Shown here piece after piece: positions 2,159-19,059 of a DNA stretch of 22,503 nucleotides. The DNA is taken from positions 1 to 22,503 of IMG/VR virus record IMGVR_UViG_3300009431_000147; one strand, written 5' to 3'. Numbering within the stretch: the stretch's first letter is position 1; each line of letters begins with the position of its first letter. The notes below the pieces were generated by a model. The model was not told the DNA's origin. It searched no databases and saw only the letters and a list, made by a program, of their open reading frames with translations. The translations under genes and the position numbers were made by a program. This DNA comes from a virus.

Positions 2159-4960
2159 TTAACCAGATATTACTAAAGCAGTTCCATTATAACAAATACT
2201 TGCTTCTTGACCGTTTCCAAAATAATGGCATTCGTCCGTTCCAGAATAAATATCCTCAATTTCATCAGTTGTGCTTCCGATATTCTGACCATTGGTGTCA
2301 AGATAGCCCCCAAGTTGTGGTGAGGTGTCTTCAACAATATCTGAAAGGTAATTATCATCAAGCAAGGCAGTTAAATCTGATTCTGAATCATAATATTGAT
2401 CATCAAGGGCATTATTATCCAATACGATATTATCATAGGTGCCACTTACTTCTCCACCAAAACTTGTTGCAGTTGTTAGATAATTTCCAATTGCTTGGTA
2501 AATTGTATCAAAATAATTTTTTAAGCTTGTGATATTAATCGCAAAAACAGTTCCAGTTAGGGTTAAGTTTGATCCAGCAGTATAGGTTGTATCAGAATCT
2601 CTTAAATCTATTGTGGAATTTAATTTAGTTTCATTGAGATACATAGTGTCTGTGTCGTTATATAAATAGATCCCATCTCCTTGTTTAGTTTGACCACCAG
2701 CACCAACATCATCCCTTTCATCCATTGTAGCATTAAGGAAGGTCATATTAACACCCATTGAATCTCCTGCATCATCATATTCTAAGGTATTATCAAAGAT
2801 TCCGCCAATTATGTCTTGCATATCTTCATCTGAAAGCCCATCAATATCCACAGAAGTTGCACCATCATGAGTTAAACAAACATCTTGATCATCCCCAAAG
2901 CAAATCTTTCTTGAATCTCCTAAGTAAATATCCTCAATTTCATCAGTTGTGCTTCCAATATCAAATCCATCCGTATCTAAATCTCCCCCTAATTGTGGTG
3001 TTAGATCATCATTTAGATTTTGCATAAAACTGAAACTCATAACCCAATCATAAATTTGATCTGCTGTGCTTAAATGGGTTGTATCTCCGTCGGAAGGTGT
3101 TGCTGTTGGAACATCAGTTATATCATCCCAATCACCATCATCTACATTTGCAATTGTAGTATTCAAATAGGTCTCATTCAAATACATTGTGTTAGAATCA
3201 TTATAAAGATAAGTTCCATCACCTGCTTTTCCCGTATCAGTATCTGTGTCACGATCATCTATTGTTTGATTTAAGTAAGTCTCATTTAGATAAATTGTTT
3301 CAGTATCATTGTATAAATAAGGTCCAGATGCATTCTTTCCTCCAGTGCTTACATCATCCCTCAAATCAATAGTTTCATTCAATTTTGTTTCATTCAAGTA
3401 CATTATAGTTGATGAATTATAGAGATAGACACCATCCCCCGCAACATGCGTATCAGTATCTTGATCAAGTAAACTCCAATTAATGACTAATCCCGTATCA
3501 TTAATTACATCATCTGTAAAATTGCTTAAGTGAGTATATTTTGTATCATTATCAACATTATCAGCAAATCCAGCTGGAACCCCCGTCAAATCTCCCCAAG
3601 CCCCTGAAAAGAAAGTTGCAACAGAATTAATAAAGTTCTCCAACCATGTTTGATTCATATTCAATTGGTTTGAATCTCCTGTGAATTGTGATGAATTATA
3701 AGAATCTAAATCCTCCCAGTAATCACTTGAATTCACATTAAAAGTTGAAGTATCCTCAACAACTAAACTACCAACAGTCAGGGTGTCTGTTGTTGAATTA
3801 TATGTGAAGTTTAGATCCTGGGCAGTTTCCCCATCACCATTTGCAAATATAACAACACTTGAATTGAAATTATCTATATCCCTTCTTGGATTAACAAAAA
3901 TAGATCCATCTGTTTCATGGCTTCTTACAACAAATCCTAAATGGTGATCCACATGAGGACTCATTGGTTTAACATTCGTTATTCCCCCAGCAACAGTAGG
4001 ACTTAAATAAATAAGTTCTCCTTCAGAAAATGCTGTTGTATTTATGCCCCTAACCAATCCAATACTTGTCACATATCCAACACCCCCATGATTAATTGAT
4101 GCTTGTGTTACTAATCCTAAAACATCTGCAATAGATCTATTATCTGCCTTAGCCAATTTAACTTCTGGCAAGCTGCCACTTGCTCCAGAAATATAAACTA
4201 CATTTGAATCATTTATTGTTTCTCCAGCATCATTCTTAACTTTGATTAAATTTTCTTCTCCAATATTAACAGAGACATCGCTTTCATCATTATAATAAAT
4301 CAGAGTATCTTGTTCTCCAGAATAATAAAGTCTTCCTTCCTGCCATGCTGGTTCATTACCATTTGCCAAAGGATAGAAATCAACATAAGTTATATTTGTA
4401 TTTGTTCCATTTTGATAAGCGAAGTTATCGTCGATAAAAGTAGAATTATGATAGTTTGGTTTATCTGCAGACCAATTTCCAAACTGTGAGAATATTTGAG
4501 AAGCATTTAACCATCCAAGATTATTATTAATCCAGCTTCCCATTATGTCTGCAACATCATTTAATATTCCTTCTGTGGTAATCCACCATTGAGAAGCATT
4601 AACAGTTGTTCCAGACCAATCTCCTTCAATTAATGTGGCATTTAATGTTGCTACTTCAATATAATCAAAAAAACCCGAAGAAACATTAGTAATATTATTT
4701 CCCATATAATCTGTATTATTAAAGGTTGAAAAACCATCAAACCAGTTATTTCCCTTAATCCACATTGTATTATTTATATTATAAGTGGATCTTAAATTAA
4801 TATCATCTTGTGGTGTAAATGCACTAACAAAAGACATTAAACTAATGGAAGCCATCATCAAGGCAAGCACCACAACAATCCACCACAATACCTTGATTTT
4901 CTTTTTGGCTTCTGCTAATATTTGATCCTTATAGGTTGGTAATTTGATTGTTTTGCTCAT
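2159..4960 (-). CDS. membrane-anchored fibre-like protein with repeats
   Basis: A 933-residue protein. I use the ATG at 4960, which overlaps the upstream TGA as ATGA; a longer ATG at 4981 exists. A cytoplasmic basic stretch (AEAKKKIKV) precedes one membrane helix at ~23-48. Residues ~237-357 carry a domain common in phage tail-fibre proteins (ITNVKPMSPHVDHHLGFVVR, DGSIFVNPR). Four copies of a YLYNDTxTMYLNETxLNxTI repeat follow at ~507-535, 543-570, 577-604 and 758-788. Two PQLGGxLDTxGxxIGSTTDE modules typical of phage fibre stalks lie near 653-690 and 875-925. Sequons are abundant. Fibre domains on a membrane anchor are unusual. It may be a virion spike secreted through the host membrane or a host-surface protein. 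Confidence 0.8.
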   Translation of the reverse strand: MSKTIKLPTYKDQILAEAKKKIKVLWWIVVVLALMMASISLMSFVSAFTPQDDINLRSTYNINNTMWIKGNNWFDGFSTFNNTDYMGNNITNVSSGFFDYIEVATLNATLIEGDWSGTTVNASQWWITTEGILNDVADIMGSWINNNLGWLNASQIFSQFGNWSADKPNYHNSTFIDDNFAYQNGTNTNITYVDFYPLANGNEPAWQEGRLYYSGEQDTLIYYNDESDVSVNIGEENLIKVKNDAGETINDSNVVYISGASGSLPEVKLAKADNRSIADVLGLVTQASINHGGVGYVTSIGLVRGINTTAFSEGELIYLSPTVAGGITNVKPMSPHVDHHLGFVVRSHETDGSIFVNPRRDIDNFNSSVVIFANGDGETAQDLNFTYNSTTDTLTVGSLVVEDTSTFNVNSSDYWEDLDSYNSSQFTGDSNQLNMNQTWLENFINSVATFFSGAWGDLTGVPAGFADNVDNDTKYTHLSNFTDDVINDTGLVINWSLLDQDTDTHVAGDGVYLYNSSTIMYLNETKLNETIDLRDDVSTGGKNASGPYLYNDTETIYLNETYLNQTIDDRDTDTDTGKAGDGTYLYNDSNTMYLNETYLNTTIANVDDGDWDDITDVPTATPSDGDTTHLSTADQIYDWVMSFSFMQNLNDDLTPQLGGDLDTDGFDIGSTTDEIEDIYLGDSRKICFGDDQDVCLTHDGATSVDIDGLSDEDMQDIIGGIFDNTLEYDDAGDSMGVNMTFLNATMDERDDVGAGGQTKQGDGIYLYNDTDTMYLNETKLNSTIDLRDSDTTYTAGSNLTLTGTVFAINITSLKNYFDTIYQAIGNYLTTATSFGGEVSGTYDNIVLDNNALDDQYYDSESDLTALLDDNYLSDIVEDTSPQLGGYLDTNGQNIGSTTDEIEDIYSGTDECHYFGNGQEASICYNGTALVISG
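2247..2278. repeat. 32-nt exact direct repeat, copy 2
   Basis: Identical over 32 nt to 2925-2956, encoding the same IGSTTDEIEDIY segment of the fibre gene. The flanking codons differ more than this core, which suggests recent conversion or duplication of the module. Confidence 0.75.
2595..3440. repeat. four-copy coding repeat (YLYN...LNETxLN)
   Basis: Four units of about 28 codons within the fibre-like gene share the pattern GDGxYLYNDSxTMYLNETxL followed by NxTIDxRD. They lie at about 3354-3439, 3249-3331, 3148-3228 and 2595-2685. The first three (3439-3148) are nearly contiguous and the fourth is separated by the first PQLGG module. Each copy carries two or more glycosylation sequons. Confidence 0.75.
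2925..2956. repeat. 32-nt exact direct repeat, copy 1
   Basis: Partner of 2247-2278. Recombination between the two would delete about 680 nt, including the fourth YLYN unit, and shorten the fibre; 678 nt is a multiple of three, so the reading frame would be kept. Confidence 0.75.
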
Positions 4961-5787
4961 TTTACTTGTGTAGCCCTCCATTGTAAATTTTGCATTATTC
5001 TTTTTCTCTCGGCAATTAATTGATTAGCAGTTTCTCTCCATTGCGTATAGGGTTCCCCTTTTTGAACACTCAATTCTCCAAGAGTATATCCAGTTGTGTC
5101 ATCAGCAGATTCCCCAACAATTCTTGCAACCATACTTATACTTGAAACAATACGCATCAATCTTTTTATAGTTTCTGGAACATCCATTTTTACAACCGTG
5201 CTTCCAGATTCATGATCAAAAACTAATGAATCTACCGTGATCTCGTTTGTATCTGTTCCTGTGACTTGTGCTATCTCCCTATAACCATCCATGCCGTAAA
5301 CTTCTACCCAATCATCTGCAGAGAATCCAGTTTCTGAACTTACAGCTAATGCAACAGAACTTCCAGCACTTGCATCTGCTGTTGTGGCTGTTGATGTTGA
5401 AGTTTCCTCAACCCAACCATAAAGATATTTAATTTTAGTAGATGCTTTTTTTGAAATATATTTAGAAACTTCTGGATTTCCATTTGTATTATCTAATCTA
5501 ACTTCTCCAGATTTGTGAACAATTAAATTATCTGCAATTGTTACATCGGTTGTATCAACCCTTAATTCTTTGACTTTTAATAAGGGTAATTTAGTAGTAA
5601 ATATCCTATTAGTATCATTCCCGTCGATAAAATCAATAGTTTCTGTTGGTGATAATTTTGTATTTAAGAATCTTGGGGTTTGATCTTCTACTTCATCGAT
5701 AATTGCATTTACATCTGTATCATTTATATCTGTGGCAGGAATTCCACAAGTTCTTCTTACTTCTGCTGCAGTGATGTGTGTTGGCAT
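4957..5787 (-). CDS. gp6-like head-tail connector (adaptor)
   Basis: A 276-residue protein. Residues 1-115 and 205-276 together look like the helical adaptor that binds the portal ring: HITAAEVRRTCGIPATDIND, AIIDEVEDQTPRFLNTKL, then VPETIKRLMRIVSSISMVAR and QWRETANQLIAERKRIMQN. Between them (~125-200) an extra β domain is inserted (VALAVSSETGFSADDWVEVY, TDTNEITVDSLVFDHESGST), the kind often seen exposed on connector proteins. Position after capsid genes fits HK97 gp6 or SPP1 gp15. The stop overlaps the ATG at 4960. Confident in family, less so on the exact ring it forms. Confidence 0.75.
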   Translation of the reverse strand: MPTHITAAEVRRTCGIPATDINDTDVNAIIDEVEDQTPRFLNTKLSPTETIDFIDGNDTNRIFTTKLPLLKVKELRVDTTDVTIADNLIVHKSGEVRLDNTNGNPEVSKYISKKASTKIKYLYGWVEETSTSTATTADASAGSSVALAVSSETGFSADDWVEVYGMDGYREIAQVTGTDTNEITVDSLVFDHESGSTVVKMDVPETIKRLMRIVSSISMVARIVGESADDTTGYTLGELSVQKGEPYTQWRETANQLIAERKRIMQNLQWRATQVK

Positions 5788-8466: not shown

Positions 8467-8513
8467 AAAAATTAAAAAATAAAAAAAAGTAAAAACCAAA
8501 ACAAACAATGGTT
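8467..8513 (-). terminator. strong terminator after the capsid gene
   Basis: Starting at the capsid stop, the minus strand has AAACCA...TGGTTT, a six-bp stem with a ten-base loop. It is followed by long T runs (T5, T8, T6, T5) broken by single A or C. Archaeal polymerase terminates on T-tracts, and the hairpin adds to it. It should separate capsid mRNA from the genes downstream. Confidence 0.7.
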
Positions 8514-9643
8514 TATGCGATATTGTCGATAAAGCTATTAAACTCTGGAGCTTTCATAACAAGACATTCGTATATCTTCAACATGAACTTTTGTGAATCA
8601 TTTGTTTTGCCAAATTCTTCATAAGTCATATCTTGAAGAACCCTCATTTCTATGAAGTCTGTATCTAAGAAGAAGATCTGTTTAGATCCGCTTGTATTAG
8701 ACAAGTTCATAGATGGGATTACTGGAATGTCGCCAACCATTGTGCTAAGAACTAATTTAGCGCTAACACCGAAAGGCAACTCAGCACCAGCAGACATCTG
8801 AGCAGGCGTATATCTATAAGTATCAATCATGATCTTTCTAAGATCTGATAAAACACTTGATGAACATACAGCTAACTTAGGTCTACCGCCGTCGTCAAAA
8901 GCATATCTAACAGCTGTTTCAATATCATCATATGTTAATGATGCACTTGATAAATCCAACTGGTTAGTTGTGCCTTGTAACTTAACTATCCCTGAAAATT
9001 CTGTTGCAGTTGTTGAAGCATCCCCATTTATAATAAGGTCTTCTTCTTTCTCTTTTAATGCTCTTGCTTTCATAAGCACTTCTAATTGCTTTGCATTAGG
9101 TGCTGATTGAGCAGCAAATGGACTTCCAGCTCCAAGGCCTGTGCCTGAAGGTTGAAATCCTTGCATCATATAAGAAGGCATAGCGGCCTGGCTTTGCCCA
9201 GTTACTCTGCCTACTGCATAAACATATTTGATAGAGACAGTTGCTCTTTCGTAGGTATCATTTGCTTCTGATAAAGCAGCATCTTCAGCAGCTGTAAAGG
9301 CAGCACCTTTTGCAGTTACTCTGTTATAATCTGCAGTAAGTCCTTGATTAGACACTCTTGGAATTAACTCAACTAATGGAGTATATTTCCTTGAAACATC
9401 AACTATTGCAGGGTCTAAGTAAACAGGCACCATAACAGTTCCTGCTGTTCCAGCCCCACCAGTTCCAGTTGTTAAAGCTTTCATTTGCATGAAACCTTTA
9501 CTGAAAACATCCTTAAGTTGTGTTCTTTGGTCTATTCCTTTCCAGCCATCAACATATGTAGTATGATCTGCCATAAGTCCGAATGAACTTGAATAAACAG
9601 ATTTTGTGTCAACTGATCCAACACTTGCTGTTCCTACTTCCAT
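8513..9643 (-). CDS. major capsid protein, HK97 fold
   Basis: A 376-residue capsid subunit of normal length. After an N-arm of about 60 residues come VMVPVYLDPAIVDVSRKYTP and LVELIPRV, the typical entry to the HK97 fold. The spine and E-loop region follow (AEDAALSEANDTYERATVSI, KYVYAVGRVTGQS), then LKEKEEDLIINGDAS, the A-domain (YDDIETAVRYAFDDGGRPKL, VLSDLRKIMIDTYRYTP) and a C-terminal β segment (KQIFFLDTDFIEMRVLQD). It follows the protease/scaffold gene with one base between TAA and ATG and no clear Shine-Dalgarno, so it is probably coupled to that gene. A hairpin and T-tract terminator directly follow its stop, as expected for the most abundant virion protein. Confidence 0.93.
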   Translation of the reverse strand: MEVGTASVGSVDTKSVYSSSFGLMADHTTYVDGWKGIDQRTQLKDVFSKGFMQMKALTTGTGGAGTAGTVMVPVYLDPAIVDVSRKYTPLVELIPRVSNQGLTADYNRVTAKGAAFTAAEDAALSEANDTYERATVSIKYVYAVGRVTGQSQAAMPSYMMQGFQPSGTGLGAGSPFAAQSAPNAKQLEVLMKARALKEKEEDLIINGDASTTATEFSGIVKLQGTTNQLDLSSASLTYDDIETAVRYAFDDGGRPKLAVCSSSVLSDLRKIMIDTYRYTPAQMSAGAELPFGVSAKLVLSTMVGDIPVIPSMNLSNTSGSKQIFFLDTDFIEMRVLQDMTYEEFGKTNDSQKFMLKIYECLVMKAPEFNSFIDNIA

Positions 9644-9644
9644 C

Positions 9645-9959
9645 TTATGCTATAAGGTCCAGAGGCTCAATTGCCTTAGCTTCAGTTTTGCTCGCTTTCA
9701 TCTGTTCTTGTTTTCCCTTAACTTGTGGTTTTTCAAGAGCAGCTTTTAATTCCTGAATTTCCTTAGCTTGAGCATCTACTTGTTTCTTAAGAGCCTTAAC
9801 TTCAGCTTCTCCTTCTCCGCCTTCTGCTTCTACAGGTGCTTCCGCCTCTGCTTCTGCTTCAGGTTTTGCAGGTTCGTCTTTTTGTTCAGGTTCTTTAGCT
9901 TCAGCTTCTGCTGGAGCCTCAGCTTCAGGTTTTTCTTGAGCTTCCTGTTCTTCTGACAT
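9645..9959 (-). CDS. nested in-frame scaffold protein start
   Basis: Codon 237 of the protease gene is an ATG preceded by GGAGG with a five-base spacer (GGAGGCAAAGATG), the best ribosome-binding site in the capsid region. Translation from it would give 104 residues: an acidic low-complexity segment (PEAEAEAEAPVEAEGGEGEA) and a coiled coil, with no protease domain. This is the layout of lambda Nu3, the scaffold made from an internal start in gene C. The presence of a Shine-Dalgarno at an internal methionine exactly at the domain border is the evidence. The protein product itself is inferred. Confidence 0.7.
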   Translation of the reverse strand: MSEEQEAQEKPEAEAPAEAEAKEPEQKDEPAKPEAEAEAEAPVEAEGGEGEAEVKALKKQVDAQAKEIQELKAALEKPQVKGKQEQMKASKTEAKAIEPLDLIA

Positions 9960-10667
9960 CTTTGCCTCCTGGTTAAATTTAATTAAGTGTGATTTTTTCT
10001 TTGGGCATTTCTTCTTTTTTAATTCTTCTTCATCTTCCTCTTCATCCTCTTTTTCCCCAGAAGATTTCTTTAAGTAATCTAAACTTTTCATAAAAATTTC
10101 ATTTACAGAAGCGTGCGTATTTACGGGATTTCCAGTAAGAGCCACATTTAATAAAGTAACATCATCCAATAATCTTATATCTGATCCATCATTTGATTTA
10201 ACCTGTTTTGTCTTTGTAGGGATATATGCAATTGAAGTTCCATCATAGAATTTGCCTTCGACATTCTCCACTACTGACTTAAAATCGTAAACCACATCCC
10301 CCTTAGAATCAAATTTCTTCCAATTAGGATTTAATTCCCACGTTACATCAACACCCTTCATGCCTCTTTCAAAACTTACTCTTTTCCCAAGAGGAATTCT
10401 TGTTTTAGCCATTTCTGTTTCTGTTAAACTCTCACCCCTAAATGCTTCATGTTCAAAATCTAACTTGATGGTTCTATCTTTTAATTGTCTGATCATGCTT
10501 TCCATACACTTTTCAGTTACAATATCATTTACAAGATCTTTATCGCCAGTTGTTATGGTAGTTTTTAAGAAAACTTTTGATTGTCCTTTCACTTCAATTT
10601 TCTCTAAATCCAGGTCTCCCGAATTTAAAACAAATATCTCCTCTTTTTTCATATTATTTTGTGGCAT
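9645..10667 (-). CDS. HK97-type prohead protease with C-terminal scaffold
   Basis: A 340-residue protein. Residues ~15-195 are a prohead serine protease (U35/S78 fold), with the probable catalytic His at 73 in LDFEHEAFRGE, Ser at 145 in YDGTSIAYIP, and the closing strand TLLNVALTGNPVN. A Lys/Glu-rich linker (200-230) leads to an acidic Ala/Glu/Pro scaffold region (237-310) and a coiled coil (VKALKKQVDAQAKEIQELKAAL). Protease and scaffold in one gene, directly before the capsid gene, match lambda C/Nu3 and similar systems. The first ATG has no Shine-Dalgarno. Starting at M6 (10652) would suit a leaderless mRNA from boundary element d. It matures the prohead and then degrades itself, by family analogy. 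Confidence 0.9.
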   Translation of the reverse strand: MPQNNMKKEEIFVLNSGDLDLEKIEVKGQSKVFLKTTITTGDKDLVNDIVTEKCMESMIRQLKDRTIKLDFEHEAFRGESLTETEMAKTRIPLGKRVSFERGMKGVDVTWELNPNWKKFDSKGDVVYDFKSVVENVEGKFYDGTSIAYIPTKTKQVKSNDGSDIRLLDDVTLLNVALTGNPVNTHASVNEIFMKSLDYLKKSSGEKEDEEEDEEELKKKKCPKKKSHLIKFNQEAKMSEEQEAQEKPEAEAPAEAEAKEPEQKDEPAKPEAEAEAEAPVEAEGGEGEAEVKALKKQVDAQAKEIQELKAALEKPQVKGKQEQMKASKTEAKAIEPLDLIA

Positions 10668-10676
10668 TTTTATTTT

Positions 10677-10694
10677 TTAAATATTGTTGTTTAA
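10677..10694 (-). promoter_or_regulatory. boundary element copy d / right exact 18-bp repeat
   Basis: Identical over 18 bp to 15954-15971 and covering the stop codon of the LamG gene (TAA at 10693-10691). Its TATA-like core (ATATTTAA) is centred near 10681. A start about 26 nt downstream would fall near 10655, next to the second in-frame ATG (10652) of the protease gene. Probable promoter of the protease-capsid unit. Confidence 0.6.
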
Positions 10695-13600
10695 GTGATT
10701 AAGGTATCTGCGAATGTATAATTGCCAGACCAGTTGTTTGCTGGGTAATTTAGGTCGGCCCTTATCCATATTGAATTATTTTGATTTTCTAATGCTATTC
10801 CAATCCATGTTGGGGTTGCATTATTAATAACATACCATTGATCTGATAAATTCATTGTTGCTTCTAATCTCCATCCAACAAGGGTTATATTGGTCATTAA
10901 GGTAATATTGTATTGTGCTTCATCAGGATTCTCTGCAGTATAAACGCCTAATGAGTTTGTTTGATTATCTGGATAAAGATCTTGTTGATTTGGGAATACT
11001 GGGCTAAATACTACCGCATTCACCCCATATGATAAACTAAAAGTAATTCCAGATCCAGCCCCACTTGAGACAGCGAAAGTTGTTGTTATTATTTCTTCAT
11101 TTCCAAAACTATCATTGGCCCATAATGTGGCAGTATAGATTCCTGTATCTACTAAACTACTAAATTCAACTTCTCCTGGATTGGTTGTATTCTCGTATAA
11201 TAAACTGGAATCTGGTTTTGTAACATTAAAAACTATTGAATCTAAATTTGTATCTGAGGCAGTCCAGTTTAAATAAATGCTTTCCGAAGTATTAATCACA
11301 GAATCATTCTTATAAACTGTTACTTCTGGTAATATGGCTATTGTAAATGATTGATTTCCTTGCTGTGAGAAGTCAGATAATCCCCCGCTTTCATTACATT
11401 CAATATTCCATAAGTATGATCCTTCTGTCAGGTTCAAGAAGAATTGATTTGTAGTTGCATTAACTGGAGAGCTATTTGATTGATTCAATGCCCAACTTCC
11501 AGTAAAGTTTCCATATAATTCACAAACATCGAGGATTTGGGCTTCTGTTGTTGGAGTGAAATTAAAAGGAACATTTGTTAGATAATCTAAAACCGTGCCT
11601 GTAAGTGGATATTCTAAACTAATCATTGGGGGTGTTGTGTCAACTGCAAATTCTACACTCGCCGTATCGTTTTCTCCTTCTGAAGTATTACACCAATAAT
11701 TTACTGTATAACTTCCATCAGCCAATTCTTGTGTGGCATTGAAATAAGTATTATTGACATTATTCATTGTTTGATTTGTTCCATTATAATCATAATAGCA
11801 AACACTTGCATTTTCATTTGTTGTTAAAATGAAATCAGTATCATTTACAATATATGTTATGGCTTCTGGTGAAACTACAGAGATTGTGAAAACATCGGGT
11901 GTTGTTGCATTAACCCACCAAGTTTCTGAACCACTATAATAATGATCTGATTCTTCATAAACAATAGTCATATTATATAATCCTTCAGATAAGGGGATAT
12001 GGGTATCCTCTAATGGTGAAAGTCCGAAATCAATCACCACACCACCCCTATATAAAATTAAACCACCATCAGAATCACCTAATATTGTTGTAGCATTATA
12101 CTGTAATGGAATTCCAACATCCCAAGTTATATTTGCTCTTGAATTATTTAAGTATAAATAAACTGTGGGATTCATAATTGTATTAAAGTTATCCTCTGCA
12201 GTATTTGAATTTCCAAGGGTATCATTAGCCCAAATCCTTGCTTGGTAGGTATCACTAATTGAAAAATTACTTGCGTTTAATGTTACATTTCCAATCCCTG
12301 TTGTTTGATAAAATAGAGATCCATTTGAATAACTTATATTAAATATCACAGTATCTAATTGTGGATCTGATGCAGTCCAATTTATGAAAATGGCTTCCGA
12401 AGTAGTTAAATCAATAAAAGTATCATTCAAATCTAAATCTACACTTGGGGCAGTTATATCAGAATCTAATGTCACAGACCATTCATCTGTTTGATTCCAA
12501 TTATTGCTTGCATCATCGAAATACCATGTCCAGTTTATAGTTCCAGTATCGGCTGGGATTTGCTTTGTTACTTCAATCTCTGTATTATTTGTCCAACTTG
12601 TTGAAGAATCATTAACCCAATCAGTTGTATTATACCATGAAAAGATATAATCTCCCGCTCCTTGATTATCTGTGAAAGTTATATTGAAATAAACATAAGT
12701 ATCCTCAATAGATTCATTTGTTAGATTGGTTTTATTATTACTCCATAATGGTGTTATTTCATCTGGTTCTGCTACTTCTGCTGGCGAAACAGAATAATTT
12801 AACATATAAGGACTTACATCAGTGTCATTTGTCTTGAAAATTGGTTTAAATTGAAAGAAGTTTCCCCCTGATGTTGATGTGTCTGCTGTTAAATCACTAA
12901 TCACTCCTTCATCTTGCCATGAATTCCATTCAATATGATAGCTTCCTAATTCATAGAGGTTTTGGATTTCTGAAGCTGATAAACTTCTATTATAAACCCT
13001 GACTTCATCTATAGAACCATATAATTCAGTAGATGCAGTATAGGCTTGACCTATCCTGCTAATATTAAACCCTGAACATGATGAAGTTCCATCCGGATTC
13101 TCTATTATTAGAACACCATCCCTATAAAAATATACATTTGTTGATTCAATAGCAACAGTTAAATGATGCCATTCATTTGCTATATCTTCAATATTATAGT
13201 TTTCTATTTCACCATCACAATAAAAGTAAAAAGCATCACTACCTTGTCTAAATGCAAAATAATCTCCATTTCCGTCGTCTCCTAAAATCATTTCATAATC
13301 CTGCGGGTCATTTAAGGTATAAACCCAAGCAGATAAAGTTAGGTTTGGACCCACTGCAAATTCACTATCTAGTAATAAATGGTCATCAACTCCATCAAAA
13401 TAATAACCTTTTCCCACTGTTCCATTTCCTTCTGTTGCTGCAGGAATACTACCTTGTAATGTTCCATTATAAACCCCAGTTTCATCAAAAAAATGTGTTG
13501 AATTGTCATTATTAAATCCCCATAATGCTATTAAGTCACTATCACTCAAATTATAACTATCAGCAGTCCTTGTCTCTAAAGTTATATTAGCATTAGCATG

Positions 13601-15928
13601 TTGAGATAATCCTGCTTTGTATAAAACATCAACTTCTGATGCTGTTAAAGTATCATTATAGATTAATACTTCATCAATTATACCTCCAAAAAATTGAACT
13701 GCATCAATAGAACCAATCATGGGAGATATATCATTTAAAGTAGAACTTGCCAAAGTATTTGAATTAGTTGTCTTAGCCTGATTAATATTATTAACATAAA
13801 TTTGAACACCAGAAACATCAGAACTTCCATCATAAGTTACAACCAAATGATACCACTTGTCTGTTGAATCTAATGCTGTACTTGTCGAAACATCAATCCT
13901 TTGAGACCATGTACCAACATGCCTAAATGTTGGCTTTCCAGAAATTAAATAAACCCATTGACCTGTATAGACCCCCCAGTCTCCTTTTCCATATATCATT
14001 TCCAGAGTTCCAGATAAATCATCTGGTTTAATCCACATTGAAAAAGAAAAATTGTCATACCTATCAAAATCAAAGTTTTCTTCATTAGCTATAGTTATTT
14101 TGTCATTCACACCATCAAACCACATAGCCTCTGAGCTTACACCAGTAGCATTATTTGTATCTGTCGGTGTTCCATCATTCCCCCCCTTTCTATCACCATA
14201 ACCATCCCCCGTTAAATAATCTAATGGCCAATAACCTATACAATCAGCATCATTATCACATAAATCCTCAACTTCATGACTCCCACTTGAATCAGCCAAA
14301 CTAAATGTAGTATTCCAATATATTGAGTTTGTGGAGTTATACCAAACTAAGGATTGAAAATGACCTTCATCATGAATATAATAAGGAGTCTTATTATAAT
14401 CTGTTGAACCATTAATTTCTAAGCTAACTCCTAAAAAAGTTGCATTTGTTTGATTTCTCCAGGCATCAGTTCCATTTCCAATTAAATCATCAGCAGAATT
14501 TATAGTAAGAGAATATGCAGGATCTATAATTGTCATTCCCAGGGTATCATTATACTTCTCATAAAACTGAACCTTAAGGATGTTATCTGTATGATTGAAT
14601 GTGCAATTAGAATAAACCTTTGAACATATATCTGTAGTGTTAATAATTTCCCCACTAACCATATCAATAAAGGGTAAATCGATTAATTCATATTGCAACC
14701 AATAATCCCTATATAAGTATTCAATAGTTTCATTAGATACCCATTCATATTCATAAAGAGTTAAATTATAATAAGTTGTATTTGAGATATTTATTTCAGC
14801 AAATCCCGGAAAGGAGGTATCATTTGCACCAATTTTTTTATTATCTCCATCTTCAGTAATCCAGATAGTCTGTAGTGCAATAATAAATTCTTCACCGTTC
14901 CACCGTCTTAAGGTATTATTAACTTGAAAATTCTCAGTTTCATACACTATTAGGGAATCATTTTGATAAACAGAGGTTGGATTAATATCGCACCTAAATT
15001 CATTAACTACAACCCTCTCATAACCATATCTCGTTGTTCCATTAACATTTTTTTGTCTTCTTGGAAGGGTAACTCTTACTTCATCATTATTTGAATTAAA
15101 ACAAGTAATTTGTATAGTTGGTGGCAGATCTAATAATCTTGTTGCGTTTCTACTCCAAAAAGATATTGTTGTGACTCTTTCTGCAGGATTTTCAAATCTT
15201 ACATCATATCCCCTTCCCGCACCCCCAACAACCCTCCAGGAAGGATTTTCTTGAACAATATAAAATGATAGTCCGTCTGTTGTTGGTTCTGTAAAAACAA
15301 CAGGATCGAAATAAGCTTGCCCTTCAAAGACTTTAGTTCTAATTTGTAATATTCCGTTTTGGAATCTTTCTACCCTTTTGATATTCTTCATCTCTTTTTT
15401 CCAATCAAGAGTCATATTGAAATCTAATTCTGCTTCTAATAATTTCTTTTTACTATCTACATAAACTTCCTTTTCTTCAATTTCATCTAAATTCTCATAT
15501 CTCCAATTGAAATAAACTCTCAATTCTGGATCTTCAGGATTCCAATCAAAGGATTGTTTGATTGATCCATCTGGCTTAATTTCAAAATATCTTGTGAGAT
15601 TTCCTTTAGAAAAATATAACTCCTGGGATAGATAATGATTTCCAGAATCATTGGAATAAGATAATTCTGAATACTTGGTGCCTCTTGCACGATACATTTT
15701 CACATAGCCTTTCCTGGAAGGATTATAATAATATGGGCGTATCTCGTCGGCAAATACCAATTCTCTGCCTTCATAAAGTTTTAAAACACCATTTGAATAT
15801 TTGGCTGTTGTTTCCCCATCTATCTCAATTCTAAATCCAAAAGGATCAACATACAAGATTACTCCAGAACCTATTGCTAAAACCAATAGGCTTGTTACAA
15901 TAATCCAGTTCATTAAAGTTTTATCCAT
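10691..15928 (-). CDS. giant membrane-anchored LamG/Ig-like surface protein
   Basis: A 1745-residue protein, the largest in the window. Residues 7-27 are a single hydrophobic helix after a short basic start, giving an N-in anchor or signal peptide. Residues ~30-215 form a β-rich module that resembles the start of the protein encoded at 822-2150. Two LamG/concanavalin-like domains follow at ~555-775 and ~795-1000. Each begins with GYWPLD- or ALWGFN-like strands and ends in EVLIYNDTLTASEV or EVRVYNRSLSASEIQNLYE. Ig-like repeats then run from ~1160 to 1625 (INWTASDPQLDTVIFN, LNWTASDTNLDSIVFN). Asn-x-Ser/Thr sequons are very frequent, as expected for an N-glycosylated archaeal exterior protein. 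It separates portal from prohead protease, where no gene is normally found. It could be a receptor-binding fibre, a virion surface protein or a host-surface adhesin. Sequence cannot decide. Confidence 0.85.
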   Translation of the reverse strand: MDKTLMNWIIVTSLLVLAIGSGVILYVDPFGFRIEIDGETTAKYSNGVLKLYEGRELVFADEIRPYYYNPSRKGYVKMYRARGTKYSELSYSNDSGNHYLSQELYFSKGNLTRYFEIKPDGSIKQSFDWNPEDPELRVYFNWRYENLDEIEEKEVYVDSKKKLLEAELDFNMTLDWKKEMKNIKRVERFQNGILQIRTKVFEGQAYFDPVVFTEPTTDGLSFYIVQENPSWRVVGGAGRGYDVRFENPAERVTTISFWSRNATRLLDLPPTIQITCFNSNNDEVRVTLPRRQKNVNGTTRYGYERVVVNEFRCDINPTSVYQNDSLIVYETENFQVNNTLRRWNGEEFIIALQTIWITEDGDNKKIGANDTSFPGFAEINISNTTYYNLTLYEYEWVSNETIEYLYRDYWLQYELIDLPFIDMVSGEIINTTDICSKVYSNCTFNHTDNILKVQFYEKYNDTLGMTIIDPAYSLTINSADDLIGNGTDAWRNQTNATFLGVSLEINGSTDYNKTPYYIHDEGHFQSLVWYNSTNSIYWNTTFSLADSSGSHEVEDLCDNDADCIGYWPLDYLTGDGYGDRKGGNDGTPTDTNNATGVSSEAMWFDGVNDKITIANEENFDFDRYDNFSFSMWIKPDDLSGTLEMIYGKGDWGVYTGQWVYLISGKPTFRHVGTWSQRIDVSTSTALDSTDKWYHLVVTYDGSSDVSGVQIYVNNINQAKTTNSNTLASSTLNDISPMIGSIDAVQFFGGIIDEVLIYNDTLTASEVDVLYKAGLSQHANANITLETRTADSYNLSDSDLIALWGFNNDNSTHFFDETGVYNGTLQGSIPAATEGNGTVGKGYYFDGVDDHLLLDSEFAVGPNLTLSAWVYTLNDPQDYEMILGDDGNGDYFAFRQGSDAFYFYCDGEIENYNIEDIANEWHHLTVAIESTNVYFYRDGVLIIENPDGTSSCSGFNISRIGQAYTASTELYGSIDEVRVYNRSLSASEIQNLYELGSYHIEWNSWQDEGVISDLTADTSTSGGNFFQFKPIFKTNDTDVSPYMLNYSVSPAEVAEPDEITPLWSNNKTNLTNESIEDTYVYFNITFTDNQGAGDYIFSWYNTTDWVNDSSTSWTNNTEIEVTKQIPADTGTINWTWYFDDASNNWNQTDEWSVTLDSDITAPSVDLDLNDTFIDLTTSEAIFINWTASDPQLDTVIFNISYSNGSLFYQTTGIGNVTLNASNFSISDTYQARIWANDTLGNSNTAEDNFNTIMNPTVYLYLNNSRANITWDVGIPLQYNATTILGDSDGGLILYRGGVVIDFGLSPLEDTHIPLSEGLYNMTIVYEESDHYYSGSETWWVNATTPDVFTISVVSPEAITYIVNDTDFILTTNENASVCYYDYNGTNQTMNNVNNTYFNATQELADGSYTVNYWCNTSEGENDTASVEFAVDTTPPMISLEYPLTGTVLDYLTNVPFNFTPTTEAQILDVCELYGNFTGSWALNQSNSSPVNATTNQFFLNLTEGSYLWNIECNESGGLSDFSQQGNQSFTIAILPEVTVYKNDSVINTSESIYLNWTASDTNLDSIVFNVTKPDSSLLYENTTNPGEVEFSSLVDTGIYTATLWANDSFGNEEIITTTFAVSSGAGSGITFSLSYGVNAVVFSPVFPNQQDLYPDNQTNSLGVYTAENPDEAQYNITLMTNITLVGWRLEATMNLSDQWYVINNATPTWIGIALENQNNSIWIRADLNYPANNWSGNYTFADTLIT

Positions 15929-15953
15929 CTTTCTTTAATATTGCATTTAGTTA

Positions 15954-15971
15954 TTAAATATTGTTGTTTAA
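15954..15971 (-). promoter_or_regulatory. boundary element copy c / left exact 18-bp repeat
   Basis: On the plus strand this is TTAAATATTGTTGTTTAA, identical over 18 bp to 10677-10694. On the minus strand it covers the HNH stop codon and lies with its TATA-like core about 30 nt upstream of the LamG-protein ATG at 15928. A start about 26 nt downstream leaves a leader of only about 4 nt. It may be a promoter, a scar of cassette insertion, or both. Confidence 0.6.
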
Positions 15972-16499
15972 AGAATACTTCTTGACATCTATAAAAGTCT
16001 TTTTTGAGTGACAACTTCCACATAACATTTGAAGGTTTTCTAACTTGTGTTCCTTGCATACACGATAAGGAATTATGTGGTCGCAATATAAATCCACATT
16101 CTTTTTGCCACATTTCACACATTGATTTTTGTCTCTTTTTAAACATTTTTTCCTTAATCTAACAAACTCAGATTCCTCCCACCATTTTTTTGTTGGAGTA
16201 AGTTTGTTCCATGGTTTCTTCTTATACATTGGATTCCCTTTTCCTTTTCTCGATTCTGATAATTTTTTTCTTGCTTCATCTGATATTCTACATTTAAAGA
16301 GATATGAATTATCCCTTTTGTAATGTCCTTTTTTTCTTAAAGTTTCATGTGCTTTTTCAGTGATTTTTTGACCATTTCTTATTCCGTTTTTATATGCATA
16401 ATACATTTGGCAAGATGCATTACAATAGCAATTTCTTTTTTTAACCAAATATTTTGGCCTTTCTATATCTTTTTTACACCATGAACATTTTGTTTTCAT
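15954..16499 (-). CDS. NUMOD3/HNH homing endonuclease, free-standing
   Basis: A 181-residue mobile-gene nuclease. The N-terminus holds a zinc finger (C5-x2-C8, then C24, C26, C30). Residues about 72-100 match the NUMOD3 DNA-binding repeat (ISDEARKKLSESRKGKGNP). Residues 118-170 are the HNH domain with C127-x2-C130, DH at 140-141, N155, and C160-x2-C163-H164. Such genes cut an allele lacking them and spread by repair. It sits between portal and the giant LamG gene, a place where core head genes are normally adjacent, so it probably invaded the cluster. Its last codons (SLNNNI) are encoded by boundary element c itself, so gene end and element are fused. Confidence 0.9.
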   Translation of the reverse strand: MKTKCSWCKKDIERPKYLVKKRNCYCNASCQMYYAYKNGIRNGQKITEKAHETLRKKGHYKRDNSYLFKCRISDEARKKLSESRKGKGNPMYKKKPWNKLTPTKKWWEESEFVRLRKKCLKRDKNQCVKCGKKNVDLYCDHIIPYRVCKEHKLENLQMLCGSCHSKKTFIDVKKYSLNNNI

Positions 16500-16522
16500 G
16501 CCTATTCAACGGCAATTCATTT

Positions 16523-16539
16523 TATATATTTTATTGTTT
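16523..16539 (-). promoter_or_regulatory. boundary element copy e (portal stop / HNH promoter)
   Basis: The minus strand reads AAACAATAAAATATATA, and the portal TAA lies within it. The TATATA core is centred about 26 nt from the ATG at 16499, so transcription should start at or very near the first codon of the homing endonuclease gene and give a leaderless mRNA. It is more diverged than the copies at 10678 and 15955 but keeps the AAACAAYAA flank. Confidence 0.5.
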
Positions 16540-18804
16540 ATCGTCCCCTATCTCGTAAGTTAGGGTGCTTCTGCACGAAACGTGACTTGGAGGTCCCTGA
16601 AATTCTTGACCCGTTGTTGTATCCTTGAAGCTTTCATTAACTCCTACTGATTTTCCATGAAGTCTTTTACAAATTGCACTTGTTCTATCATCCATAGCTG
16701 CAACCCATTTTTTAGTTATTTTCTGGCCAGAGGCTTTCATTACCTGCAAGGTTCCCTGATTTTCAGCCCTATTTACTTCCGTCCTTGCGATTGCTTCTGC
16801 TCTAACTTCGGCTTTATTAAACACATTAGTGACTCTTGATTTTAGTTTATCGATTCCTTCCCCATTTATAATTCCTCTTTGGAGTTCAGCTCGCAGATCG
16901 TTCCCGATCTCCTCACTCATGTTTTTAATATTAGAAAAGGTATAATTCTGTAAATAATCTATTGCGTCCTTATTTGGTAAGAAGTTTCTATCAAGCTTCT
17001 TTTCTGCACTTTCCCAGCCTTTTAGGAAATTATGATTTATTATCTGATCACTCAATCTCCTAACTATGGATAAATCTAAAATTCCTTTCAATACTTTAAA
17101 TATATCATCTACTGCTTTAATTTCTTTTAATTTGCTCTTTCCAACTTCTGATTCAAGTAATTCTTTAATCTTTTTCTCATCTTCCGATAATAAATGAACC
17201 ATTGCTTTTTTTAGTCTTCCTTCAGACATTTCTTCACCTTCCCTCAGAATTAAAGGATTATCTCTTGTTTGTATTGCTTTTCCTTCTGCTCTTCTCATGA
17301 CTTCAGCACAATAGGCTTTGGGATCTTTCTTATCTCTGTTTGCTAAAACACAAGCATCAAAATCTCTATAACCTGCAAATGGTTTTCCTTCGATTGATTT
17401 TTCTTCAGCATTTTCATTCTCAACTGGAAAGTTCTGTTGTGCATTTCCCTGATTAGGAAAATTAAATGTATTTCCTCCAGATTGCCAATTCTTTGGAGGT
17501 TCATCACCCCATTCAACTTCATCTAAATTTTCATTGGTTCTGATCTCATTAACTGTTCTAAGACCATTTTTTATTTGCATTTCATATAATTTTGTTTTCT
17601 TTAATTCCTCATTTACATCATAAGTATCAAATTTAAATTCAATTCCTTCATACTCAAATTCACTTACAACCTCATGATTGATTTGATATTCTATTAATCT
17701 TAATAATGGATAAATTGCTTTCCTTTTGAAAACATTAGATTGAACAATCTCTGTAGCTTTATTTGAATTTTCAGTGTATCCTAACTCTGAAGGGGTTACA
17801 CCAAAACATGCCCACACCATTTTTCCAAACCATTCTTGTTGTTGGATTAATTCAAGCTCAGCATTAGAGAATTGCATTCTTACAAATTCAGGCTTTTTAT
17901 TAACAATTGGTAAGTGGTGTAGGATCTTCTTCCAATTTCCCAAGAAGTCTTTAGTCTTTTGTTGCTCCATCCACTGTTTCTTAAAATTCTCAATGGATTC
18001 TGAATCAGCATCTATTAGTGCCATAAATCCTTTCGGGATTGAATTATCATTATAGTATTCTAAATTGCTTTCAATTGCATAAATTAATGTTTTTAATACC
18101 TCATCTAATACTTCGACTGGACTTCTTCCATATAATGAATCTGTTCTTGGGTGTTGTTCAAACCATACAACTTCCCTCTTTCCAAATGCAACTGGATAGG
18201 CTGCAGTGATCCACCCATATTGAAAATATGCCCCATGTTCTCTTGCCTGCATTTCAGACATTCCACTTGGTCCAACAACACCATTTAATATGATCTCATC
18301 ACGATCTTCATATCTTCCATACTCGTCTGGATTTTTAGTGAATGTGGCACCATCCTTAGCATATAATTCCACCATCTCTTCTTTCTTATTAAAAACTTTT
18401 ATCAATATTGCAGAATCTATCTCTAAAATATCTCTTGCAATTTTCTTTAAAATATTTTCAAAACTTTCTTTATTTGTATTTGGATTTTTAAAAAGTGCTT
18501 TAACATGATCAATTTGTCTTTGCATTTCAGATGTTATGACTGCATCTTCTTCAATTGGCACAATATCCCAGGCAATAGAAGTTATTTCAGAAATAATTGT
18601 GTTTATACACATCTCAACAAATGGTGTGTTGGCTAATTTCCTTATGTCTGGAAGATTAGAATATCTCGGATAACCGTAGGGTGGTTTATATAAGAATTCT
18701 GGAATAAATGCTTTTGGAACCCCATCTCGAGTTTCCTCTAAAATTCCTTGAATAGGTGGGACTGTTTTCACCTCTTTTTTTCTGAATAAATTAAGGATGG
18801 ACAT
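16531..18804 (-). CDS. portal protein fused to a MuF-like domain
   Basis: A protein of about 757 residues. The first ~430 residues are an HK97/SPP1-type portal, the dodecameric ring at the capsid vertex through which DNA passes. Recognisable stretches include NTPFVEMCINTIISEITSIAW, split here as NTPFVEMCINTI and SEITSIAW, then VVWFEQHPRTDSLYGRSP and ACFGVTPSELGYTENSNKAT. A middle module near residues 470-510 carries PFAGYRDFDACVLANRDKKD and AYC, a short Cys-containing module seen in some phage portal or protease proteins. The end (~665-750) is a MuF/SPP1 gp7 domain: ARTEVNRAENQGTLQVMKAS, KWVAAMDDRTSAICKRLHGK and PPSHVSCRST. Start choice is uncertain: ATGs at 18804 and 18810, or GTG at 18828, none with a Shine-Dalgarno. 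The stop overlaps boundary element e. Confidence 0.93.
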   Translation of the reverse strand: MSILNLFRKKEVKTVPPIQGILEETRDGVPKAFIPEFLYKPPYGYPRYSNLPDIRKLANTPFVEMCINTIISEITSIAWDIVPIEEDAVITSEMQRQIDHVKALFKNPNTNKESFENILKKIARDILEIDSAILIKVFNKKEEMVELYAKDGATFTKNPDEYGRYEDRDEIILNGVVGPSGMSEMQAREHGAYFQYGWITAAYPVAFGKREVVWFEQHPRTDSLYGRSPVEVLDEVLKTLIYAIESNLEYYNDNSIPKGFMALIDADSESIENFKKQWMEQQKTKDFLGNWKKILHHLPIVNKKPEFVRMQFSNAELELIQQQEWFGKMVWACFGVTPSELGYTENSNKATEIVQSNVFKRKAIYPLLRLIEYQINHEVVSEFEYEGIEFKFDTYDVNEELKKTKLYEMQIKNGLRTVNEIRTNENLDEVEWGDEPPKNWQSGGNTFNFPNQGNAQQNFPVENENAEEKSIEGKPFAGYRDFDACVLANRDKKDPKAYCAEVMRRAEGKAIQTRDNPLILREGEEMSEGRLKKAMVHLLSEDEKKIKELLESEVGKSKLKEIKAVDDIFKVLKGILDLSIVRRLSDQIINHNFLKGWESAEKKLDRNFLPNKDAIDYLQNYTFSNIKNMSEEIGNDLRAELQRGIINGEGIDKLKSRVTNVFNKAEVRAEAIARTEVNRAENQGTLQVMKASGQKITKKWVAAMDDRTSAICKRLHGKSVGVNESFKDTTTGQEFQGPPSHVSCRSTLTYEIGDDKQ

Positions 18805-18823
18805 GAGCATGATGGGGCTTGTG

Positions 18824-18871
18824 CCCACATTAAAAGGAGGTCAATGCAATGAATAGCACTAACCTTGTGGG
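18824..18871 (-). promoter_or_regulatory. leader hairpin in front of the portal start
   Basis: CCCACA at the start of the leader (18871-18866) can pair with TGTGGG (18829-18824), six base pairs, with AAGG/CCTT next to it able to add pairing. The loop holds GACCTCC, which on the mRNA looks like the anti-Shine-Dalgarno end of 16S rRNA rather than a ribosome-binding site. Immediately downstream GGGCACAAGCCC forms a second small hairpin. No Shine-Dalgarno precedes any portal start candidate, so structure may set initiation here. Pairing is read by eye. Confidence 0.35.
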
Positions 18872-18891
18872 AATATAAGAAATTTGTTATT

Positions 18892-18908
18892 TAAAAATAT
18901 TGTTGTTT
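18892..18908 (-). promoter_or_regulatory. boundary element copy b (upstream of portal)
   Basis: The minus strand reads AAACAACAATATTTTTA, the boundary element with two extra T's. A start about 26 nt downstream falls near 18869, at the outer edge of the CCCACA...TGTGGG hairpin (18866-18871 with 18824-18829). The portal mRNA would then begin with that hairpin and a leader of about 40-65 nt. This is the probable portal promoter. Confidence 0.5.
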
Positions 18909-18924
18909 GATGAATTAATTTTGT

Positions 18925-18988
18925 GCTTCCCGTAATTGACTAAAAAATTGATTTGCCCTTTACAATTAATCAGCGGACAACGGGAAGC
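18925..18988. repeat. 9-bp perfect inverted repeat with 46-nt interior
   Basis: GCTTCCCGT at 18925-18933 and ACGGGAAGC at 18980-18988 are exact reverse complements. Outside them, TTGTG and CACAA can extend pairing after a TAAA bulge. Inside, TGATT/AATCA offers a further short pairing. It is one of the few GC-containing stretches in an otherwise AT-rich gap with no reading frame. It could be a structured RNA, a 5' leader, an operator or a packaging site. Its place directly after the terminase genes makes the last worth considering. Confidence 0.55.
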
Positions 18989-19015: not shown

Positions 19016-19028
19016 TTTCAGAATTTAA

Positions 19029-19043
19029 TAAATATTATTGTTT
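19029..19043 (-). promoter_or_regulatory. boundary element copy a (downstream of terL)
   Basis: On the minus strand it reads AAACAATAATATTTA, beginning about 17 nt after the terL stop. It matches the other boundary elements at 14 of 15 positions against the exact copies. If it is a BRE/TATA promoter, transcription would start near 19006, inside the 15-bp quasi-palindrome at 19001-19015. The transcript would then begin with the long hairpin at 18925-18988 rather than a gene. Confidence 0.45.
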
Positions 19044-19059
19044 GTATGATTATTTTTGA

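Follow-up and report, generated by a model that had tools for sequence, protein, structure and literature searches.

Does an exact direct repeat on either side of a single giant gene mark that gene as an exchangeable cassette, or does it have another meaning? The question arises in a 22,503-nucleotide stretch of viral DNA (the window; positions 1 to 22,503 of IMG/VR record IMGVR_UViG_3300009431_000147), where TTAAATATTGTTGTTTAA matches exactly at 10677-10694 and at 15954-15971 and the two copies flank a 1745-aa LamG ORF at 10691-15928 on the minus strand. The initial annotation had described both the repeat and its position around one giant LamG gene correctly, and had taken the arrangement as evidence for a cassette. 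We favor a different reading, to which we assign a probability of about 0.9 from sequence comparisons: the repeat would be two copies of one late viral promoter, and LamG would be an accessory gene that carries its own copy at a recurrently occupied junction.

The locus and its repeat

The genes of the region run on the minus strand in the order terminase-like 503-aa ORF, portal, HNH, LamG, protease, and capsid, with LamG between portal and HNH (15954-18828) on one side and the protease (ORF 9645-10667) on the other. Pfam and PHROG matches identify an HK97-type capsid, a portal, and a protease. The portal protein (16531-18828, minus strand; Phage_portal 3e-31) has a C-terminal Mu-F-like domain (Phage_Mu_F 2.8e-20), the major capsid protein (8513-9643, minus strand) is of the SU10/HK97 type (SU10_MCP 8.4e-21), and the prohead protease (9645-10652, minus strand) is identified by a PHROG head maturation protease match (9.7e-5) and by the promoter-to-start spacing described below. 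About 150 related loci were gathered by portal- and capsid-based searches. Five of these relatives fall in genome bins, four of which belong to Woesearchaeota, Nanoarchaeota, or another archaeon; the remaining relative, L155, is binned as a WOR-3 bacterium, which is likely misbinning. Judged by the gene matches and by the relatives' metagenome bins, from which the host is taken, the virus is a tailed virus (Caudoviricetes) of DPANN archaea.

The 18-bp exact repeat is real and above chance. Two exact direct repeats of at least 18 bp were observed in the whole window against 0.03 expected. A further copy of TTAAATATTGTTGTTTAA, with three mismatches, lies at 18893-18910; 0.37 matches with up to three mismatches are expected by chance, and three matches were reached in none of 100 shuffles. 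We note that the longest exact repeat of the window is a different one (32 bp, 2247-2278 and 2925-2956), which lies inside a 940-aa gene and reflects internal protein repeats. On the gene strand the 18-bp repeat reads TTAAACAACAATATTTAA, with copy 2 just before LamG and copy 1 just before the protease. Each copy overlaps the stop codon of the preceding gene: the LamG stop codon falls inside copy 1, and copy 2 takes in the HNH stop codon while coding for the HNH C-terminus (SLNNNI*). Outside the copies, identity is 8/40 upstream and 17/40 downstream. No extended homology was found in the compared 40-nt flanks, and the duplicated sequence is limited to the promoter itself.

The gene between the copies encodes a protein with Laminin_G_3 domains (Pfam 5e-38), Ig-like similarity, and an N-terminal hydrophobic segment that is a predicted membrane anchor. 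It contains 88 N-glycosylation sequons where 29 are expected (z 11.8), an excess that is absent in the capsid, portal, and protease, and a Nanoarchaeota bin (DPANN) contains very large ORFs that match both the C-terminal and the LamG domains of the protein. Our best guess from these features is that the product is an exported, membrane-anchored, N-glycosylated surface adhesin that would be made late in infection. Two other proteins, of 940 aa (2159-4981) and 442 aa (822-2150), also combine N-terminal membrane anchors with a sequon excess, which is unusual for virion proteins; comparison of the LamG N-terminus with the 442-aa tail-region protein gave an hhalign probability of 4-7%.

The repeated element and its distance from gene starts

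Portal and protease are separated by ∼50 nt in the window's clade, and this gap has one RAACAACAATATTTAAATA copy at a fixed place. A 24-nt matrix was built from the protease-upstream sites of 23 relatives (consensus ATTGAACAACAATATTTAAATATA), with the window left out of the training. In the window, the best match (25.9 bits) is the predicted protease late promoter at 10672-10695 (minus strand), which holds copy 1 and consists of a BRE-like AACAACAA and a TATA-like TATTTAA. The second best (18.1 bits) is the predicted LamG late promoter at 15949-15972 (minus strand), which holds copy 2, and the third (13.7 bits) lies upstream of the portal at 18888-18911 (minus strand); throughout the clade the element likewise occurs before both portal and protease. 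Two weak promoter-like sites on the gene strand are found before HNH (16519-16542, minus strand; 4.3 bits) and where the terminase-portal gap begins, ahead of a predicted hairpin RNA (19023-19046, minus strand; 3.1 bits). The remaining gene-strand positions score at most -1.0 bits, and the opposite (plus) strand reaches 5.2 at best. Across 0.37 Mb of relatives, the element is strand-specific, with 70 gene-strand matches and a single match for the reversed matrix.

In 25 of the 27 relative loci, an in-frame protease ATG follows the end of the element at a distance of exactly 19 or 20 nt, when second in-frame ATGs in L006, L118, L064, and L050 are counted. The window obeys this rule when its protease start is taken as ATG 10652, 19 nt downstream of the element; LamG ATG 15928 is 20 nt downstream of its own. 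The protease probably starts at ATG 10652 (M6), not at 10667. A double-ATG protease start pattern is also present in L006, L118, and L064. The box lies ∼26 nt 5′ of the start codon, with the BRE-like AACAACAA just 5′ of TATTTAA. Because an archaeal TATA box/BRE serving a leaderless transcript lies at this distance (19-20 nt) from the ATG, we take the element to be such a promoter, and the positions of the elements suggest that portal, LamG, and protease would each be transcribed as a single late gene into a leaderless mRNA. Two points count against the promoter explanation: the LamG copy scores below the protease copy (18.1 vs 25.9 bits), and the matrix represents one clade of the virus family, with farther clades retaining, in the corresponding position, only the TATA-like box, next to a different upstream stretch. 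Wide use of the full element in hosts was not found (38 matches at ≤1 mismatch in 100 genomes). The initial annotation had allowed that promoter conservation elsewhere in the genome might explain the repeat fully, which would speak against a cassette, and what we find is a predicted late promoter conserved across the family.

Portal and protease promoters are closer to each other within a genome than between genomes (19.2 vs 18.4 of 24, permutation p 0.007, 18 relatives); ACATCAAT, for example, is common to the two promoters of L019 and AATAATGT to those of L108. This likeness could reflect co-evolution with a regulator, or conversion. A stable hairpin at 18925-18988 (minus strand, z -3.3), in the terminase-portal gap and 3′ of the weak promoter copy at 19023-19046, is a possible viral non-coding RNA. 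No Rfam family matched in the window, and GC-rich inverted repeats are present in the terminase-portal gap of L035 and L045.

The portal-protease junction and the origin of LamG

A survey of 77 portal sequences, the window among them, bears out the earlier remark that portal and protease are normally neighbors: about 60 of the 77 junctions are without an inserted gene, the two genes being adjacent and ∼50 nt apart. The occupied junctions hold HNH genes only (five), large fiber/adhesin-like genes (six), or small ORFs (five), and the window's junction, with HNH plus LamG, is one of its kind (1/77). Comparison of related loci across portal-protease, proposed in the initial annotation, showed that most relatives are without the LamG gene; it is missing from the junction in all relatives examined but L150, whose LamG gene differs. 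Since most relatives have an empty junction, the 1745-aa LamG gene is accessory. Our search found no close relatives of the gene, and a 21-mer scan of viral contigs returned 10 stretches only, several of them already known relatives. The HNH-only and fiber states are scattered over the portal tree, where every occupied state takes at least five changes; these changes may be gains or losses. In the fiber-bearing relatives L008, L135, L140, and L144, a visibly similar small ORF comes first after the portal, and their inserts may be one old shared insert. Probable portal inteins were seen at L006:10013-13558, inside the WAC/CFGVT motif, and at L008:2603-5358 and L150:7003-7713, both at the C-terminal HVN/CRS motif; the L008 intein is recognized by sequence and the L150 intein by a weak Pfam Intein_splicing match.

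Exact repeats of 18-24 bp also bracket the portal in 7 of the 18 relatives with both promoters (L006, L019, L053, L100, L105, L108, and L118). The portal is indispensable for tailed virions and is present in every relative, a universality that follows from finding the loci via the portal and capsid gene. As a gene present in all relatives is repeat-bracketed too, bracketing alone is uninformative on cassettes, and the repeat loses its value as cassette evidence, being a family-wide late promoter in our reading. The idea that recombination would remove the gene cleanly survives in part. Deletion between the copies would give the HNH-promoter-protease layout of L118, L053, L104, L032, and L058, different fiber genes occupy the junction in other relatives, and the within-genome promoter likeness (p 0.007) could come from recombination between copies. 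However, repeats bracket the insert at none of the nine other insert-bearing junctions, so that exchange through repeats is no general mechanism, and a deletion route between the repeats is at most specific to the window's virus. Empty junctions have one promoter, alternative inserts are without bracketing repeats, and no close relative, whether carrying LamG between the same repeats or lacking it there, turned up in the search. It is quite unlikely that the 18-bp repeats work as functional cassette ends through which recombination removes or swaps LamG in the living population. As an account of what the repeat is, cassette ends were rejected: relatives that lack an insert have the element before protease and portal as well.

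A single gene that is absent in relatives and has direct-repeat flanks might also suggest a transposon-like element, with the repeat as its end or as a target-site duplication, but no transposase or integrase was among the matches for the genes tested, and the element is also found before the portal and in the relatives' empty junctions. We regard this origin as exceedingly improbable. A target-site duplication is ruled out by the presence of the same element before protease and portal in uninserted relatives.

The gene upstream of LamG encodes a free-standing NUMOD3-HNH homing-type endonuclease (15954-16499, minus strand), with an HNH nuclease domain (PF01844, 2e-9) and a NUMOD3 DNA-binding motif (PF07460, 2.4e-6). 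At its 3′ end the gene extends into the LamG promoter, and placement is alike in relatives; where a relative has HNH only, that gene reaches as far as the protease promoter. The junction HNH genes are of at least two types (HNH_3 and NUMOD3-HNH) in five relatives and the window. Of the 23 HNH-type ORFs in the window's clade, 8 terminate in the promoter zone, compared with 6 of the 236 remaining ORFs (Fisher p 2e-6), and HNH ends at promoters occur in both the terminase-portal and the portal-protease gaps; the clustering may arise from simple space limits, these gaps being the main non-coding sites. HNH/zinc-finger genes of the terminase-portal gap (L006:9571-9957, L115:9511-9990, L050:5130-5669, and L096:2859-3425) terminate within the portal promoter or next to it, and this promoter then doubles as coding sequence. 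The N-terminus of the window HNH resembles the L008 intein ORF, and a second small HNH ORF, of 78 aa, is located at the contig end (22214-22450).

The HNH gene had earlier been offered as a natural source of breaks. Its recurrence at the same junction agrees with that role, but five relatives have HNH without LamG. In a homing scenario, an empty junction would be cut and repair would copy HNH together with the linked LamG into new viruses. The two or more HNH types at the junction and the clustering of HNH ends at promoters speak for such a route, as does flank co-conversion, a known property of homing endonucleases in T4 (PMC2988022). Weighed against the HNH-only relatives, several fiber inserts without a free-standing HNH, the 5.2 kb length of LamG, and a cleavage site that is putative, homing is a tentative possibility that we do not favor.

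Under the promoter reading, LamG plausibly arrived as a gene-plus-promoter unit, either through recombination at the shared promoter or through repair after an HNH cut. It would have been inserted at the portal-protease junction, 3′ of an HNH gene abutting the promoter, and its expression would be late, from its own copy of the shared promoter. A more general proposal, which we consider unlikely, is that the late promoter is the family's landing site, against which HNH families insert and at which promoter-promoter recombination moves gene-plus-promoter units like LamG. If true, transcription start, homing, and recombination would all take place at one sequence.

Comparison with known viral systems

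With the element, promoters of uncultured DPANN viruses can be defined in a testable way and gene starts corrected, and the portal-protease junction emerges as a place where homing endonucleases and surface/fiber genes recur. More generally, when a viral genome is compact, two promoters can be all that lies behind an exact repeat flanking a gene. Phage morons are single accessory genes that bring a promoter of their own into a row of conserved structural genes. LamG is likewise a lone accessory gene with its own predicted promoter among structural genes, but that promoter is its neighbors' late promoter and not an independent one.

The element is a new instance of a repeated viral promoter, in DPANN viruses. 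In halovirus HF2 (Haloferacalesvirus), intergenic repeats of 58 or 29 bp are TATA/BRE promoters with activity in reporter assays, and one class has been proposed to regulate late morphogenesis genes (PMC8707807). Both cases have a repeated intergenic promoter motif of an archaeal tailed virus at positions conserved among relatives. HF2 is haloarchaeal, whereas here the element is ∼20 bp, AT-rich, and found in DPANN viruses, with putative activity; the two are likened by description, and they differ in hosts and base composition. HGTV-1 has a conserved TATA/inverted-repeat motif that has been likened to the shuffling elements (PeSLs) of T4 (PMC3950731; for T4-type PeSLs, Arbiol et al. 2010, as cited in PMC3950731). 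As in the window, promoter motifs are repeated between genes and have been suggested as recombination points for gene shuffling, but the window motif is without a stem-loop, and shuffling is here suggested by geometry and a variable junction only. T4-like phages carry free-standing homing endonucleases (seg/mob) in promoter-bearing gaps (PMC2988022). The HNH genes described here also occupy intergenic, promoter-bearing gaps between conserved genes; unlike seg/mob, the HNH ORFs of the window's clade, whose mobility is putative, often end within the promoter of the next gene.
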